From Emergencia timonensis (GTDB taxonomy: Bacteria > Bacillota > Clostridia > Peptostreptococcales > Anaerovoracaceae), in contig NZ_FLKM01000009.1 in NCBI RefSeq assembly GCF_900086585.1, positions 1,674,001 to 1,738,000 on the forward strand: a stretch of 64,000 nt of DNA, written 5' to 3'. A program made the translations under genes and the position numbers. Shown piece after piece: positions 4,095 to 47,790 of this stretch (position 1 is its first letter; every line of letters begins with the position of its first letter). The notes beneath the pieces were generated by a model. It was not told the DNA's origin. It did not search any database and saw only the letters and a list, made by a program, of their open reading frames with translations.

Positions 4095-4433
4095 ATGAAC
4101 GTATACGATCAGGCTCACGGATTGGCAGCAGCTATCAGAGAGTCAGAAGAATTCAAACAGTATGACCAACTGAAAAAAGTAGTCGACCAAAATGAAGAGT
4201 TATCGAAGATGATTAAAGATTTTCAGTCGAAACAGTTTGAAGCCCAAGCTAAGCAGATGATGGGCGAGGAGTCTGCACCAGACATGAACCAGCAGATTCA
4301 GAACTTATATCAGATTATCGTAAAAGATCCGATGGCTGCACAGTATATGCAGGCAGAAATGAGATTTTCTCTGATGATGAACGATGTGTATAAGATTCTG
4401 GGCGAAGTAATGGGACTTGGCAATATAGGATAA
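4095..4433 (+). CDS. YlbF/YmcA family protein
   Basis: Small helical protein of 112 residues. It matches the YlbF/YmcA (Com_YlbF) family in its heptad-like helices, the KxxxxxQNEELSKMIKDFQSKQ segment and the C-terminal MNDVYKILGEVMGL. In B. subtilis, YlbF and YmcA form the Y-complex with YaaT, an iron-sulfur-containing specificity factor that guides RNase Y in mRNA processing; here only the family assignment is seen. The gene follows RNase J, which fits an RNA-decay neighbourhood. CAGGGAGG (4079-4086) precedes the ATG. Its last codons adjoin the TATAAT that begins repeat A. Confidence 0.85.
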   Translation: MNVYDQAHGLAAAIRESEEFKQYDQLKKVVDQNEELSKMIKDFQSKQFEAQAKQMMGEESAPDMNQQIQNLYQIIVKDPMAAQYMQAEMRFSLMMNDVYKILGEVMGLGNIG

Positions 4434-4436
4434 GAT

Positions 4437-4537
4437 GTGTTATAATGTTTCCGACGATATTGGCGGCTTTGCCGCAATGTAGGAAACATTGCAACACAAA
4501 TTACATTATTTTATCTAATGGAAATTTGTGTTATAAT
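4437..4537 (+). repeat. Promoter-associated repeat, copy A
   Basis: First copy of a four-member family in this window. It opens with TATAAT (4441-4446), preceded by TTGGCA at an 18-base spacing. A hairpin has outer arms AATGTTTCC (4444-4452) and GGAAACATT (4482-4490), inner stem CGGC/GCCG with a TTT loop, and a 3' internal loop CAATGTA. A second hairpin AACACAAATT (4493-4502)/AATTTGTGTT (4523-4532) runs into a second TATAAT (4532-4537). The 11 bases TGTGTTATAAT occur at both ends. The second -10 box lies about 75 bases before the efp start and may be its promoter. Confidence 0.75.
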
Positions 4538-4611
4538 AAAGGCATAATTTACAAAATTGCTGTATTACAGCGAGAAATAATATTAAATTAAAAGAAAGTG
4601 AGAATAGAGCG

Positions 4612-5172
4612 ATGATTACTGCAGGTGATTTTAGAAAAGGTATTACTTTTGAAATTAATGGCGATCCACATGTCGTGCTTGATTTTCAGCACGTGAAGCC
4701 GGGAAAGGGCGCCGCTTTTGTCAGAACCAAATACAAGAACATACTGACTGGCGCTACAAGAGAAGAAGCATTCAATCCGAGTGATAAATTCCCTAAAGCA
4801 CACATTGAGACAAAGGTGATGCAATATCTTTACAATGATGGAGAGCTTTACTACTTCATGGACAACGAAACCTATGAACAAGTACCTATCAGCCAGGATC
4901 AGGTAGAAGAAGCGATGAAGTACCTGAGAGAAAACGATGAAGCGACCATCAAATTCTATAAAGACAGTCCGTTCCTAGTGGAAGCGCCAAACTTTGTCGA
5001 CTTGGTCGTTACTGAAACTGAGCCAGGTATCAAAGGCGATACTGCTACTAACGTAACAAAAGCCGCCACAGTTGAAACTGGAGCGGTTATACAGGTTCCT
5101 ATCTTTATCGAAGAAGGTGAAAAGATCCAGATTGATACTAGAACAGGTGAGTATTTAGGAAGATCAAAATAA
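4612..5172 (+). CDS. efp: Elongation factor P
   Basis: Translation factor that binds between the P and E sites and relieves ribosome stalling at polyproline stretches. The 186-residue length and three-domain layout (KOW-like, OB, S1-like C-terminal) are normal for bacteria. The loop [15 protein letters not shown] carries the lysine at the tip that is modified in many bacteria; the modifying enzyme is not visible here. The C-terminal signature runs [25 protein letters not shown] ribosome binding site precedes the ATG. The gene appears monocistronic, with repeat A providing candidate promoters upstream and a hairpin terminator downstream. Confidence 0.96.
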
Positions 5173-32649: not shown

Positions 32650-32718
32650 TTGATAATTGGCAATAACAATGGTATAATGATTCCAGTAATCTAACGGCGT
32701 TGCCGCAAGGTTAGAATT
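32650..32718 (+). repeat. Promoter-associated repeat, copy D (short)
   Basis: The best promoter of the family: TTGATA (32650-32655), a 17-base spacer, TATAAT (32673-32678). Then comes a hairpin, TCTAAC (32690-32695)/GTTAGA (32710-32715), around the inner stem CGGC/GCCG with a GTT loop and the conserved CAAG(G). Unlike copies A-C it has no second hairpin or second -10 box. It probably drives the asp23-nusB cluster that starts at 32737. Confidence 0.72.
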
Positions 32719-32736
32719 AGATAGACGAGGTAGGTT

Positions 32737-33108
32737 ATGGCCAATTTACAGGGTGAAGAGCTTGGAACGATCAAAATTTCAGACGATGTAATCATGGTAT
32801 GCACTGCCAATGCAGTGTCAAAGATTCCGGGAGTCAGTGAATTGGCAGGCGGGCTTACAGAGAGTATCTCTAAGAATATCTTAGGAATCGACTCTTCCAG
32901 CAAGGGTGTCAAACTATCGAGAAATGATGCCGGCATCATTCTTGATATCTACATCATCGTAGAATACAAAGTAAAAATTCCTCAACTTGCCTGGGAGATA
33001 CAGAGCAACGTAAAGAAAGAAATTGAATCCATTACAGATTTAAACGTACTAGAAGTAAATATACACGTGCAGGGTGTAAACCTGCCTGGAGAGGAAGACA
33101 AAAGATAA
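32737..33108 (+). CDS. Asp23/Gls24 family envelope-stress protein
   Basis: Protein of 123 residues with the Asp23/YqhY pattern: LGTIKISDDVIMVCTANAVS, KIPGVSELAGGL, GIILDIYIIVEYKVKIPQLA, and a C-terminal LEVNIHVQGVNL. Family members associate with the membrane or modulate fatty acid synthesis (YqhY). The gene lies directly before nusB, the same position as yqhY in B. subtilis, which supports a YqhY-like role. AGACGAGG lies before the ATG. Repeat D supplies the promoter. Confidence 0.9.
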   Translation: MANLQGEELGTIKISDDVIMVCTANAVSKIPGVSELAGGLTESISKNILGIDSSSKGVKLSRNDAGIILDIYIIVEYKVKIPQLAWEIQSNVKKEIESITDLNVLEVNIHVQGVNLPGEEDKR

Positions 33109-43170: not shown

Positions 43171-43301
43171 CAGTTGCTGAGAAAGCAGGAAAGTATGATA
43201 CCTTCCTGCTTTTGCGTTATCATTGATGACGTATACAAGCGACCCTTCCTGTGTTTGTCATACAAACCCCAACTTCTTTGTTTCATTAAAAGCGTAAATT
43301 G

Positions 43302-43402
43302 TGGTATAATGATTCCACAATCTTACGATTTTATCGCAAGGTAGGAATCATTGAATTATATGTTGCGATTGTATTTTCAGAGGAATGCACATAGTATAAT
43401 GA
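43302..43402 (+). repeat. Promoter-associated repeat, copy B
   Basis: TATAAT (43305-43310) starts the element. The outer stem is ATGATTCC (43309-43316)/GGAATCAT (43344-43351), the inner stem CGAT/ATCG with a TTT loop, and the 3' internal loop CAAGGTA. The tail shares TATTTTCA-AGGAATGCACAT with copy C and ends on a second TATAAT (43395-43400). GTATAATGA is found at both ends. The element abuts a DUF3791-like frame that has no proper start. Confidence 0.78.
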
Positions 43403-43451
43403 ACGCATCGATTCTGCAGCTTGCATCGAATTCTATAGCAATCACATCGGC

Positions 43452-43676
43452 ATGTTCAGCAACGAAGTCTATGCGCTTTTCGAAAGAGGTGGTGTGCTTA
43501 AACTTTTAGAAGATGAATATGAAGATTTACATGGAATGAGCATGGAGTATATGATGCAGTTCATAGATGATTCTATATCACGGTTCTACGGCTATAGTGA
43601 AACAACCGCAGATTATAACAAAAGAAATTGGCAGAGATTTTGGCGCTGCTTTCTATACCACAGATATCAGAGATAA
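43452..43676 (+). pseudogene. DUF3791-like fragment
   Basis: The frame encodes FSNEVYALFERGGVLKLLED, EYEDLHGMSMEYMMQFIDD, which resembles the DUF3791 pattern (SGKEVYELFEKYGVLDYLxxxYDVLHTxG..YIVEDID). In the same frame the sequence is open from 43395, immediately at the end of repeat B. There is no convincing start codon or ribosome binding site; the ATG at 43452 lies inside the domain. The 5' end seems to have been removed, perhaps by the repeat. The 3' part overlaps the DUF3990-like gene in another frame. Confidence 0.55.
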
Positions 43677-43815
43677 AACAATTCGCTGGGCGAAGAGAAA
43701 AGCTCGACTTTATTTCAAACAGACAAGACGCAACGTTGATTTTTACGTTTCTGTATATGAATGGGAACGGAATCCTTCACTGAACATCTTAGAATTTAAT
43801 GATGCTTCAATGTAA
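43567..43815 (+). pseudogene. DUF3990-like (ADP-ribosyltransferase-fold) fragment
   Basis: Frame of 82 residues with the DUF3990 start pattern MILYHGSTAIVKQPQI, then IGRDFGAAFYTTDIRDKTIRWA and YVSVYEWERNPSLNILEFND. Full-length relatives are about 150-170 residues and continue with EEWLDFV and a C-terminal catalytic-like region. Here a stop follows LEFNDASM. The YHGS motif is what links the family to the ART fold. DUF3791 and DUF3990 genes occur together and may be a toxin-antitoxin or effector cassette (inference). This copy looks truncated. Confidence 0.6.
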
Positions 43816-44006
43816 TGGCAGGAGCAACAATCATCAGAATGATTGTTGCTAAATATAACTTAACAGAAAAACAGGCGCTAAGAGACTTCTATGAGTCTGC
43901 GACAGGTGCGTCTCTGTCAGATGACGAAACTGGTTTATATGGTCAATCTCCCTTGTATATCTTAGGACTTTATATAGAAGAAAAGGAGACGCAACTTGAC
44001 TGCTGA
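43815..44006 (+). CDS. Small protein linked to DUF3990-type cassettes
   Basis: Frame of 63 residues (IIRMIVAKYNLTEKQALRDF, ATGASLSDDETGLYGQSPLY, ILGLYIEEK). The start sits on the stop of the DUF3990-like fragment (TAATG) with no ribosome binding site, so it would rely on coupling. Proteins with the ADDETGLYGQSxxYI pattern are familiar beside DUF3990 genes. It may be the third cassette member and the only one that looks complete. No function is assigned. Confidence 0.55.
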   Translation: MAGATIIRMIVAKYNLTEKQALRDFYESATGASLSDDETGLYGQSPLYILGLYIEEKETQLDC

Positions 44007-44080
44007 CATTCTCTAGCTTATCCGTTATTATATGAATATTTTAAAGAAATACGAGAGATAAATTACAAGGAGGTACTATC

Positions 44081-45052
44081 ATGGCTGAATGGAATGTATA
44101 CTACGACAGCTTTTTCTACGCTGACCTGCAGGAGCCGAAGACGCAAAAATCCGGTGTGGAAATTTCTATCAACAAAGATTTCCTGTGGGGCGATGAGGAA
44201 TGGAAGATCTTGTCCATGTACCTCTTTGACAAAGGACCAGTTTTTCACATTTGCAAGAGAATCAAAGATGAGACGATTCGTGAATTTTATGACAAATGGG
44301 GTTATTTGATGCAGATGGCAAAGGAAGACCGCCACAATGAAGTTTCCTTTGCAGAATGGGAAATGATGCGCTCTGACAGTCCTTATGGAGAAACCCCGTC
44401 TATTCACATCACAATTGATGGAAGCCCTGTAGATTCCGGACACTCAATGAGCGATGCTTGGATTCCCCTTTGTTATGATAACCCTGAACCTTGTGAAAAC
44501 ATGCCCCATATCCTAAGTCATTATTCACTGGAGGATTCTGACGGCTGGCTCATCATCCATGTGGAGGGCGAATGGCCAGAAGATTTCGCCAGCGTAGAGG
44601 ACATCAGTCAAATAGAAGTTTCCCTGGTAGCCGAAGACGTTGATATATCTGGCCCTCATTTTTCGATCAAAGAAAATGAAACGGAAATCAAGTTTATCAG
44701 ACCACTTACAGGCCAACAGCACACGCTGAAAATCCTGTCCAGCGAGCCAGCCTCCATAGATAATGATGAAGAAGATCGCCCGTGGCACAATACGCAACTG
44801 ACCTATACCCTTGAACCAGATTTGTCGAAAGATATCTTTTCTGTCAGAGACTGTTCATATGGCGAGATAGGCGGCGTTGGCATAATACTTGACCGTGATG
44901 AAGAGGACGACGCTGTTCACACTGCGTTTTCCTCCCTTTATTTCAATCCACCAGAGGAAATCGAGTGGCGTATAGTCTTCCATGAGAAAATCAAAGAGGA
45001 TCTCACCCTGACTTTACAAGCAGGCAGAGATTTTGGTATAATAAACACATGA
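44081..45052 (+). CDS. Hypothetical protein, acidic
   Basis: Soluble acidic protein of 323 residues, not recognised. The N-terminal half (MAEWNVYYDSFFYADLQEP to WGYLMQMAKEDRHNEVSFAEWE) and a beta-rich C-terminal half are visible. There is no signal peptide or membrane helix. AAGGAGG lies 9 bases before the ATG. The last five codons and the TGA lie inside repeat C, whose TATAAT is at 45037-45042. The repeat therefore rewrote, or has always supplied, the C-terminus. Confidence 0.72.
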   Translation: MAEWNVYYDSFFYADLQEPKTQKSGVEISINKDFLWGDEEWKILSMYLFDKGPVFHICKRIKDETIREFYDKWGYLMQMAKEDRHNEVSFAEWEMMRSDSPYGETPSIHITIDGSPVDSGHSMSDAWIPLCYDNPEPCENMPHILSHYSLEDSDGWLIIHVEGEWPEDFASVEDISQIEVSLVAEDVDISGPHFSIKENETEIKFIRPLTGQQHTLKILSSEPASIDNDEEDRPWHNTQLTYTLEPDLSKDIFSVRDCSYGEIGGVGIILDRDEEDDAVHTAFSSLYFNPPEEIEWRIVFHEKIKEDLTLTLQAGRDFGIINT

Positions 45053-45135
45053 TCCTAACGACTTCGTCGCAAGGAAGTGTTTATTGAATCATGTGCTTCG
45101 ATTCTATATTCAAAGGAATGCACATGGTATAGTCA
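45034..45135 (+). repeat. Promoter-associated repeat, copy C
   Basis: TTTACA, 18 bases, then TATAAT (45037-45042). The outer stem is ATAAACAC (45041-45048)/GTGTTTAT (45077-45084), the inner stem CGAC/GTCG with a TTC loop, and the internal loop CAAGGAA. Two alternative pairings exist: CACATGAT (45046-45053)/ATCATGTG (45088-45095), and ATGTGC/GCACAT (45120-45125). A second -10-like TATAGT (45128-45133) closes it, 39 bases before mutS. Confidence 0.78.
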
Positions 45136-45171
45136 AACGAAAGGTCCAAGAAAAGGAGTAAATAAACATAT

Positions 45172-47790
45172 ATGGCAAACAAATTATCCCCAATGATGCA
45201 GCAATATTTAGAAATCAAGGCAAACTATCAAGATTGCATTATGTTTTTCAGACTGGGAGACTTTTATGAGATGTTCTACGAAGACGCTATTGAGGTCTCG
45301 CGAGAATTAGAATTAACATTAACAGGAAAGAACTGCGGTCAAGAGGAAAGAGCTCCCATGTGCGGAGTTCCTTTTCATTCCGCAGATACATATATTGCCC
45401 GACTGGTGGAAAAAGGATACAAGGTTGCAATTTGTGAACAGACAGAGGATCCCGCCGCTGCAAAGGGCATCGTTAAGCGCGAAGTAATTCAAATCGTAAC
45501 GCCGGGTACTGTGACTTCACAGTCTATGCTAAATGAAAAAGAAAACAACTATTTGGCATCTGTCTATATGGACAAAAACGGCATGTCCATTTCCTATTGT
45601 GATATCTCTACTGGCGAGTTATATACAACAGAAGAGACAAGCAGTATTGATATCTTTGAAGACGTGCTCAACGAACTGGTAAAAATAGATGCTAAAGAAA
45701 TTATGATCAACGAGTCCTTTGCACTTCATTATGGAGAAGACGAAATCAAGGCTGTAACGGGCGGCTTTCTCTTCGTGATGAACGATTCCTATTATCAGCA
45801 AAAGGCTGCGGAGGACGCGATAAAAGCCCAATTCGGCGCTATCTCACTTACAAGCCTTGGACTGGCCGGCAGAGAGCTTTGCGTACTGTCTCTAGGCGCA
45901 CTTTTAGCCTATCTTTTAGAGACCCAAAAACAAAATCTAAAGCAACTGACTCGCTGCCAGTTCTACGAAATCGGAAAACATATGTCCCTGGACAAAGCAA
46001 CACTGCGCAATCTGGAGATTACAGAGACATTATATGATAAAAGAATACAAGGCTCCTTGCTGGGTGTTTTAGACAAAACCGGGACAGCCATGGGAAGCCG
46101 CAAAATGAAGCAGTGGCTCAGAGAACCGCTTAACAATGCCTCAGAAATCAATCTCAGGCTGGATGCCGTAGAGGAATTAACGCAGCAGCCTATGCTGGAA
46201 AACAATCTCAGAGAGGCCTTGAAACAGGTTTACGACTTTGAGAGGCTGACAGGCAGAATTGCCTCCGGCAATGCCAACGGCAAAGATCTCATCGCTTTGA
46301 AAAATTCTGTCTTCGTACTGCCGGAAATCAAAGGCGGACTTGCGTATTCCCAGTCTATGCTTTTGCAGCAATTATGCGAACAGATTCACGATCTTGCGCA
46401 CATCTATGACCTCATAGACAAGGCCATCTGCGAGGATTCTCCTTATACCATCAAAGAAGGCGGCGTAATTAAAGAAGGATACTCTGAAGAATTAGACAAC
46501 ATTAAATTCTCTATCAAAGACGGCAAGCAGTGGATCGCCAACCTGGAAAATGCAGAAAGAGAACGCACCGGTATCAGAAATCTGAAAGTCGGTTTTAATA
46601 AAGTGTTTGGCTATTACATCGATGTGACTAAGTCTAATATCGATTTGGTGCCCGACGATTATATCAGAAAACAGACTCTGGTTAACAACGAACGTTACAT
46701 TACACCAGAGCTGAAAGAAATGGAAAATCTGGTTCTCAATGCGGAAACGAAAATCAATCAGTTGGAATACGAGTTGTTTACTGAAATCCGTGCTGACATT
46801 CAAGGCTATATCAAAGAAATTCAGGAGACTTCTCAGGCTATCGCCCAGCTTGACGTGCTCTGTTCTTTTTCAAACGTAAGCAACAAACTAGGATATGTAA
46901 AACCGATGATCGACGAAAGCTTTGAACTACAAATCGAAAAGGGCAGACATCCCGTTATTGAACAGATGACAGGCGGCGGCATGTTCGTCTCAAATGATAC
47001 TTACCTAAATAATACGGATACCAGCATGTTAATTATTACCGGACCGAACATGGCAGGCAAATCCACTTATATGCGGCAGACCGCTTTAATCGTCCTCATG
47101 GCCCAGGCGGGGTGCTTTGTCCCTTGTGAATACGCACGTATCGGTGTTGTAGACAGAATTTTTACCAGAATAGGCGCTTCAGATAATTTGGCCCAGGGAC
47201 AATCAACATTCTTCGTTGAAATGAGTGAACTGGCATATATCCTGAACTGTTCCAATGAGCGCAGTCTGATCATCTTGGATGAAATCGGCCGCGGCACCAG
47301 CACCTATGACGGACTTTCCATTGCCTGGGCTGCTGTGGATTATCTGTGCAATGAGCAGGCACATATCAGGACTTTATTTGCAACACATTACCATGAACTG
47401 ACCGTTTTGGAAGAACAGATCAAGGGGGTTCGCAACCTCAATGTTGACGTTTCAGAAGAGAACGGCAATATCGTCTTCCTGCACAAAATCATTCCCGGTT
47501 CCGCCAGCCGCAGCTACGGTATCCACGTGGCAAAGTTAGCAGGTATTCCGAACGCACTTCTTGAGAACGCTCAAAACAAACTGCACGGTCTGGAGGAGGG
47601 CAGCGTCCAAATTGAGATTACGGCGCCAAAGCAGGAAGAAATGCAGTTGGCGGCCGAAGAGCAGATTTCCTTCTTTACGCCGGGACCAAATCCAATCGTG
47701 GCGCGGTTAAAGGAGCTCAATCTCATGGAAATCACGCCATCACAAGCTATTAGGATATTAGAAGAATTAAAGGATGCAATCGATGATTAG
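45172..47790 (+). CDS. mutS: DNA mismatch repair protein MutS
   Basis: Mismatch-recognition ATPase of 872 residues, full length for the family. The mismatch-reading motif is GDFYEMFYEDA near residue 27. The connector, core and clamp domains follow. The ATPase has Walker A GPNMAGKSTYMRQTAL, the DNLAQGQSTFFVEMSE block, Walker B LIILDEIGRGTSTYDG and the ATHYHELT switch, then the HTH-like C-terminus. It overlaps mutL by 8 bases. Repeat C and its -10 boxes lie in the 120 bases upstream and probably drive the operon. Confidence 0.97.
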   Translation: MANKLSPMMQQYLEIKANYQDCIMFFRLGDFYEMFYEDAIEVSRELELTLTGKNCGQEERAPMCGVPFHSADTYIARLVEKGYKVAICEQTEDPAAAKGIVKREVIQIVTPGTVTSQSMLNEKENNYLASVYMDKNGMSISYCDISTGELYTTEETSSIDIFEDVLNELVKIDAKEIMINESFALHYGEDEIKAVTGGFLFVMNDSYYQQKAAEDAIKAQFGAISLTSLGLAGRELCVLSLGALLAYLLETQKQNLKQLTRCQFYEIGKHMSLDKATLRNLEITETLYDKRIQGSLLGVLDKTGTAMGSRKMKQWLREPLNNASEINLRLDAVEELTQQPMLENNLREALKQVYDFERLTGRIASGNANGKDLIALKNSVFVLPEIKGGLAYSQSMLLQQLCEQIHDLAHIYDLIDKAICEDSPYTIKEGGVIKEGYSEELDNIKFSIKDGKQWIANLENAERERTGIRNLKVGFNKVFGYYIDVTKSNIDLVPDDYIRKQTLVNNERYITPELKEMENLVLNAETKINQLEYELFTEIRADIQGYIKEIQETSQAIAQLDVLCSFSNVSNKLGYVKPMIDESFELQIEKGRHPVIEQMTGGGMFVSNDTYLNNTDTSMLIITGPNMAGKSTYMRQTALIVLMAQAGCFVPCEYARIGVVDRIFTRIGASDNLAQGQSTFFVEMSELAYILNCSNERSLIILDEIGRGTSTYDGLSIAWAAVDYLCNEQAHIRTLFATHYHELTVLEEQIKGVRNLNVDVSEENGNIVFLHKIIPGSASRSYGIHVAKLAGIPNALLENAQNKLHGLEEGSVQIEITAPKQEEMQLAAEEQISFFTPGPNPIVARLKELNLMEITPSQAIRILEELKDAIDD

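Follow-up and report, generated by a model that had tools for sequence, protein, structure and literature searches.

Repeat units at four sites of the window

We analysed a stretch of 64,000 nucleotides from Emergencia timonensis (contig NZ_FLKM01000009.1, positions 1,674,001 to 1,738,000; hereafter the window), in which a structured DNA repeat, running from one extended -10 promoter box (TGnTATAAT) to the next, lies at four sites (Table 1). Three of these are promoters of genes which, from their sequences, we take to be efp, an Asp23-like gene and mutS, and the fourth adjoins the remnant of a DUF3791 gene. The preliminary description had placed copies at 4437-4537, 32650-32718, 43302-43402 and 45034-45135, and upon scanning the window with a covariance model built from 43 units we obtained exactly four matches at E up to 0.05, one at each of these places. 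The copies at 4437-4537, 43302-43402 and 45034-45135 fold better than shuffled sequences (z -3.3 to -5.3). The one at 32650-32718 has hairpin 1, as had been claimed, but nothing else of the unit, and its fold is not above shuffles (z -0.44). Between the DUF3791 remnant and about 44020 there is no open reading frame (ORF) of 100 amino acids, and the stretch has the appearance of decayed genes.

Table 1. Repeat units, promoter motifs and adjoining genes in the window. Matches are those of the covariance model.
Feature	Position	Strand	Remark
-35-like hexamer TTGGCA of the efp array	4417-4422	+	first -10 box 18 nt further downstream
Unit at the efp promoter	4441-4531	+	match 4438-4539, 83.4 bits
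-10 box TATAAT of the efp unit	4441-4446	+	
Hairpin 1 of the efp unit	outer arms 4444-4452 and 4482-4490; inner stem 4464-4467 and 4471-4474	+	
Hairpin 2 of the efp unit	arms 4493-4502 and 4523-4532	+	
Second -10 box (TGTGTTATAAT)	4532-4537	+	taken as the native efp -10 box
Gene downstream of the efp array	4612-5172	+	presumably elongation factor P (efp)
-35-like hexamer TTGATA	32650-32655	+	17 nt upstream of its -10 box
Partial, decayed unit, hairpin 1 only	32673-32718	+	at the promoter of gene 32737-33108, presumably Asp23-like; match 32670-32740, 27.9 bits, E 0.017
Full unit	43305-43394	+	between -10 boxes 43305-43310 and 43395-43400; match 43302-43402, 112 bits
DUF3791 gene remnant	43407-43676	+	PF12668, 53.9 bits; fused directly to the array on its 3' side
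-35-like hexamer TTTACA of the mutS array	45013-45018	+	first -10 box 18 nt further downstream
Full unit at the mutS promoter	45037-45127	+	between -10 boxes 45037-45042 and 45128-45133 (TATAGT); match 45034-45135, 108 bits
Gene downstream of the mutS array	45172-47790	+	presumably mutS; followed by mutL

Architecture and covariation of the unit

We found that the unit measures roughly 90 bp, with a spacing of 90 or 91 bp from box to box in 95 of 140 cases, and contains two separate hairpins of different sequence, the 3' arm of hairpin 2 ending in the TGn of the following extended -10 box. Units follow one another head to tail and so form tandem arrays of direct repeats. The preliminary description had covered hairpin 1 with its two stems, but missed the second covarying hairpin (for instance 4493-4502 with 4523-4532), the full extent from TATAAT to TATAAT, the arrays and the placement at promoters.

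All three stems covary, in the relatives as well. The RNAalifold consensus has 23 pairs, of which 17 show compensatory (double) changes, with a covariation score of 0.459 versus 0.166 in shuffles, which bears out the compensatory stem changes claimed at the outset. When aligning the units of the genome, paired cells reach 96.8% (81.0% in shuffles) and two-sided changes 160 (46.4 in shuffles), with no excess of further pair types (31 versus 31.9). Analogously, across 42 matches from relatives we count 95.9% paired cells (76.9% in shuffles) and 199 two-sided changes (65.9 in shuffles), figures that lean toward structure, as this alignment was fitted to the covariance model and includes three weak antisense matches (L034, L233, L234) of the kind that the near-palindromic unit produces. 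One-sided stem changes are rare, with 8 one-sided against 160 two-sided cells in the genome and 13 against 199 in the relatives, a hint either that pairing matters in DNA rather than RNA or that arm types are copied whole. Additionally, six units folded as single-stranded DNA lie above shuffles (z -2.8 to -7.5).

No Rfam family matches the window at the gathering score, and at E up to 1 positions 43201-45200 return only RsaE, at 25.5 bits versus a cut-off of 79. On these negatives we rejected a riboswitch or a known small RNA as the identity of the unit, in line with the initial remark that it matches no familiar riboswitch class.

Copy number in the genome and spread among relatives

The genome (4,661,482 bases in 9 contigs, 96% complete; family Anaerovoracaceae) yielded 76 matches to a single copy and at least 147 to the covariance model, a lower bound since 150 candidates were scored. 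The supposed four-copy family of intergenic hairpins is thus real, but it is genome-wide, tandemly arrayed and situated at -10 boxes. Both outcomes that the preliminary description had named as refuting it, a lack of further copies in the genome and a lack of covariation in relatives, were checked, and neither was observed. Upon detailed examination of 60 stretches around copies, a profile search identified 187 units, complete or partial, that group into 76 clusters, of which we retained as arrays the 75 whose best unit scores at least 30 bits. The number of -10 boxes per array is one in 5 arrays, two in 32, three in 16, four in 14, five in 7 and seven in 1.

When partitioning by taxon, we observe matches in 7 of the 13 genomes of the genus, with the 147 of E. 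timonensis facing 1-8 in six relatives and zero in the other six. Across the family, 21 of 148 genomes, from 17 of 92 genera, contain a match under stricter filters with only 27 candidates scored per genome. Some other genera of the family hold many copies: in G083 all 27 scored candidates match, and G107 still gives 22 matches when rescored with 150 candidates. Unit length differs there, at 78 bp in an array of G083 and 79 bp in G107 versus about 90 bp in E. timonensis. None of 24 order-level relatives has a match. Carriage by phages or plasmids found no support, as two exact consensus patterns occur 0 times in viral_contigs and blastn with one copy against phages and plasmids gave no match. 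A literature search of partial coverage, with few subscription papers, met no description of these repeats.

Arrays lie at promoters and face genes

We next consider where the arrays lie, with gene starts and extragenic status resting on crude ORF calls (by which 11 of the 75 array midpoints fall inside called genes, a figure we do not use). A same-strand gene starts within 200 nt downstream of 65 of the 75 arrays, in comparison to 16% of positions drawn at random and 38% of those drawn at random from intergenic DNA, and under a looser rule (any ORF of at least 50 amino acids within 320 nt) every array has a gene, at a median distance of 71 nt. Among the ten arrays outside the 200-nt rule, four lack a convincing gene (L024 on the plus strand, L125, L128 and L137), and tRNA genes, considered as targets of arrays without a called gene, adjoin none of them. 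At L137, on the minus strand, a hairpin that by eye resembles a terminator, T run included, comes shortly after the array, which would therefore yield a very short RNA.

Upstream of the first -10 box, 31 of 68 arrays have a -35-like hexamer (TTGACA-like, at least 4 of 6 bases, spacing 16-18), versus 0 of 70 internal and 1 of 43 last boxes; over all 75 arrays the 31 compare with 10.7 +/- 3.0 in shuffles. The native -35 element, where recognisable, therefore lies upstream of the first unit. The box itself is exactly TATAAT in 64 of 68 first, 67 of 70 internal and 23 of 44 last positions, counts to be read with the fact that units were found with a profile containing both boxes. Furthermore, the base 7 nt past the -10 box, the expected start of transcription, is a purine in 131 of 140 units (A in 112, G in 19).

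The downstream genes are varied. A Pfam family was found for 18 of 20 scanned, among them MreB, an EF-G-like protein, serine hydroxymethyltransferase, two amino-acid-kinase proteins, an EPSP-synthase (MurA) type, a Mur ligase and a response regulator, and they share no common function. Core genes with affected leaders include efp, mutS, pyrH, pyk and murA.

Array ends, unit order and nested sequences

Upon examining the 70 arrays with two or more boxes (the five single-box arrays were left out), we observe that on the 5' side homology with the remaining units of the same array extends no more than 5 nt beyond the first -10 box in 63. On the 3' side it ends within 3 nt of the last -10 box in 38, and in 28 it continues for at least 8 nt beyond, mostly within hairpin 1. 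Some of the 38 enter a partial hairpin 1 of another type, as at L018 and at 43302, where a truncated one seems to start beyond the box at 43395-43400. A sharp 5' end with a loose 3' end would fit copying from the -10 box downstream, and would also fit selection acting on the promoter while the side nearer the gene erodes. Within arrays, units occur in the orders ABA and ABAB.

Several variants accompany the main type. On the minus strand of this genome, L131:13077-13388 holds a diverged subfamily of shorter units in the order A-B-A-B-A, and in four loci of genus relatives (L030, L032, L161, L202) a second hairpin 1 type (TATAATAACCTCAC...GAGAACATTG) alternates with the main one. A different repeat, about 100 bp long (CTTTTTGCCCC...GGCAAAACGGACAGCG...) and often edged by CGTTGC on both sides, lies nested within the hairpin 1 loop in all eight of its pattern matches (L019, L020, L026, L134, L135, L146, L149 and L158, in stretches chosen for their arrays), and L123 and L133 contain a similar one by eye. 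Finally, at L034 of G020 the unit has for a neighbour a nearly perfect palindrome that carries TATAAT on each strand (TATAATGTCCGCAGAGCGGACATTATA) and may represent a still more reduced form.

Empty sites and promoters occupied in several species

The efp promoter lacks a unit in all 12 genus relatives. Each of them has one -10 box there, preceded by the end of the same upstream gene and followed by a similar leader. The pyrH promoter is filled in 5 of 13 genomes (E. timonensis, G004, G006, G007 and G011), by units that differ in each, and empty, with a single -10 box, in the other 8, that is, in 8 of the 12 relatives; in the sequence that runs up to TATAAT, the empty G002 closely resembles the filled G004, G007 and G011. 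For mutS, five of 11 loci (L041-L044, L050) show by eye a single -10 box without a unit, and the rest have no clear promoter. These counts leave out the pyruvate kinase promoters of 8 relatives and 9 of 11 Asp23 loci, and the 35 unoccupied TGnTATAAT sites that we counted are not used as a rate, the loci having been chosen for their arrays.

Besides pyrH, further promoters are occupied more than once: that of a MurC-like gene in E. timonensis and G007, those of glyA and an Asp23-like gene in E. timonensis and G009, that of a YhbY-like gene in G005 and G007, and that of ruvC in G007 and, in another genus, G083. Some of the gene names in this group are presumed from the sequences. Such recurrence could reflect old inheritance with turnover or a preference for certain targets.

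A probable short mobile element at -10 boxes

We consider it probable that the unit is a non-autonomous, structured, short interspersed DNA element, akin to repetitive extragenic palindromes (REP) or miniature inverted-repeat transposable elements (MITE), which inserts at sigma-A -10 boxes in one orientation. Sequence comparison gives the family, its covarying hairpins, the -10 position, the gene-facing orientation, the empty sites, the arrays and the promoters occupied in several species; beyond this, we infer that the element transposes actively, passes through a folded intermediate of single-stranded DNA, targets the -10 region where the open promoter is melted, and depends on an enzyme supplied in trans. 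The strong contrast in copy number between species, 147 versus 0-8 within the genus, also counts in favour of a mobile element. Insertion would keep the native -35/-10 core upstream and add a -10 box downstream, and because the unit ends in TGnTATAAT, promoters would tolerate the landing. Every copy would bring a new target for the next insertion, so that arrays could grow both by insertion into internal -10 boxes, giving ABA and ABAB, and by tandem duplication. The element probably moves as a folded single strand, with the melted -10 region of an open promoter as its target, and its enzyme would act in trans. A more specific version, which we offer tentatively and hold to be possible rather than probable, is promoter homing: the enzyme would copy the double-hairpin single strand into the melted -10 region, one way round, with TATAAT serving at once as its target and as its terminus. 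In this version the host promoter would survive, each insertion would create new targets, and arrays would grow from a fixed 5' end.

Several points weigh against a mobile element of this kind. The analysis found no mobilising gene, and the Y1 transposase (PF01797), whose profile matches 5 of 14 control genomes, has 0 matches in this one. By the 4-of-6 measure, 37 of 68 first -10 boxes lack a -35-like hexamer, and selection for -35/-10 spacing alone could make the 5' junctions seem sharp. The 28 of 70 arrays that extend at least 8 nt past the last -10 box into a copy of their own unit call for more than simple insertion at -10 boxes. Copying of a few arm types as wholes could also account for the scarcity of one-sided changes, and the consensus T-G positions (columns 7-56 and 59-97) suit RNA better, though they touch the constrained -10 motif. 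Current mobility, moreover, is suggested by comparison between species rather than among strains of one species.

An unlikely alternative, in our judgement, is that the units are cis-acting RNA leaders. Their hairpins, once transcribed, would recognise a protein or a ligand or make the mRNA more stable and would control a regulon, and copies would have spread through usefulness. Their sense-direction position in 5' leaders, the inner hairpin 1 conserved across genera with covarying stems, the consensus U-G positions and the purine that possibly makes each unit a start site all agree with this. Yet the downstream genes are diverse, the unit is absent from the efp and pyrH promoters of all or most relatives, and there is no Rfam match in the searches above. 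In first units, moreover, one outer arm of hairpin 1 lies between the -10 box and the expected +1, outside the transcript of that promoter, and the arms are nevertheless paired as well (5.44 of 6 in 70 first units) as in later ones (5.50 of 6 in 70), for which reason we do not prefer an RNA element. Equal pairing would follow from a fold that matters at the level of DNA; upstream read-through or the young age of the units would explain it too. It is quite improbable that the arrays are mobile promoters, tandem extended -10 promoters copied for raising the expression of the genes they join. The TGnTATAAT of each unit, the well-kept internal boxes and the direction of the arrays suit that idea, but the promoters were already there, as empty sites and the -35-like hexamers upstream of first units indicate, the box nearest the gene is the least conserved, and the hairpins are left unexplained. 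Least credible is an ordinary REPIN (a doublet of inverted REP sequences) or a derivative of the insertion sequences IS200/IS605, moved by a Y1 (HUH) transposase. Two hairpins with a fixed flanking motif recall such elements, and Y1 matches occur in 7 of 12 repeat-bearing relatives; the gene is nonetheless missing from the other 5 and from this genome, the richest in copies, and the two IS200-like Y1 genes whose flanks were read by eye (L246 in G004, L247 in G064) have hairpins that differ from the units and a plain IS200 look. Y1, including the REP-associated tyrosine transposase (RAYT), is thus not likely to be the mobilising enzyme, and we rejected it as a candidate. The short mobile element at -10 boxes remains the reading we prefer.

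Relation to known systems and significance

Other intergenic structured repeats include the BOX, RUP, ERIC and Correia elements, among which BOX has a tandem module of variable number; none of them is known to target -10 boxes exactly and with a single orientation. REP sequences, REPINs and bacterial interspersed mosaic elements (BIME) are short, structured, high-copy and extragenic, at times in tandem clusters, and REPINs are described as miniature mobile DNA able to fold as single strands (PMC3116915, PMC8049555). Like the REPIN/RAYT system, the units are high-copy, extragenic by our crude ORF calls, and fold as single strands; unlike it, they are direct repeats bounded by -10 boxes, facing genes at promoters, rather than an inverted REP doublet, and no RAYT gene (Y1, PF01797) matches in this genome. 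The element therefore works like a REP or MITE, but lacks the RAYT and the inverted doublet of REPINs. An IS200/IS605-derived MITE would have a related autonomous copy with the same ends. Y1 has 0 matches here, and the two Y1 genes of relatives whose flanks were read have other hairpins beside them. A classical MITE would have terminal inverted repeats and a target-site duplication; the ends of the present unit are TGnTATAAT direct repeats, and the shared -10 box may be either a duplication or part of the element. Among putative mobile promoters and promoter-bearing MITEs, BrickBuilt of Porphyromonas gingivalis is MITE-like, with terminal inverted repeats and bidirectional promoters (PMC4596501), and as a small repeat with tandem sub-repeats that places promoter motifs beside genes it resembles the present one; the difference is that the present element has the native -10 box for its target, and this box recurs at each unit end. 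A mobile promoter would carry a working promoter, and the units, with an extended -10 box and a purine at +1, may do so. Stem-loop repeat families of 40 bacterial genomes, clostridial ones included, are likewise intergenic with a common fold, and among those described in the part of that survey seen none has these features (PMC2267715).

An insertion into a promoter would normally break it. An element that lands exactly on the -10 box and leaves one at either end shows how the most sensitive places in a genome can be occupied. The 5' leaders, those of core genes included, are rewritten in steps of about 90 nt. This raises the questions of which enzyme mobilises the units, whether open promoters are its target, and what effect the hairpins and the tandem -10 boxes have on expression in a family of gut bacteria. 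If homing to promoters proves true, these repeats would represent a class of mobile DNA whose defining feature is the site that the transcription machinery itself melts.
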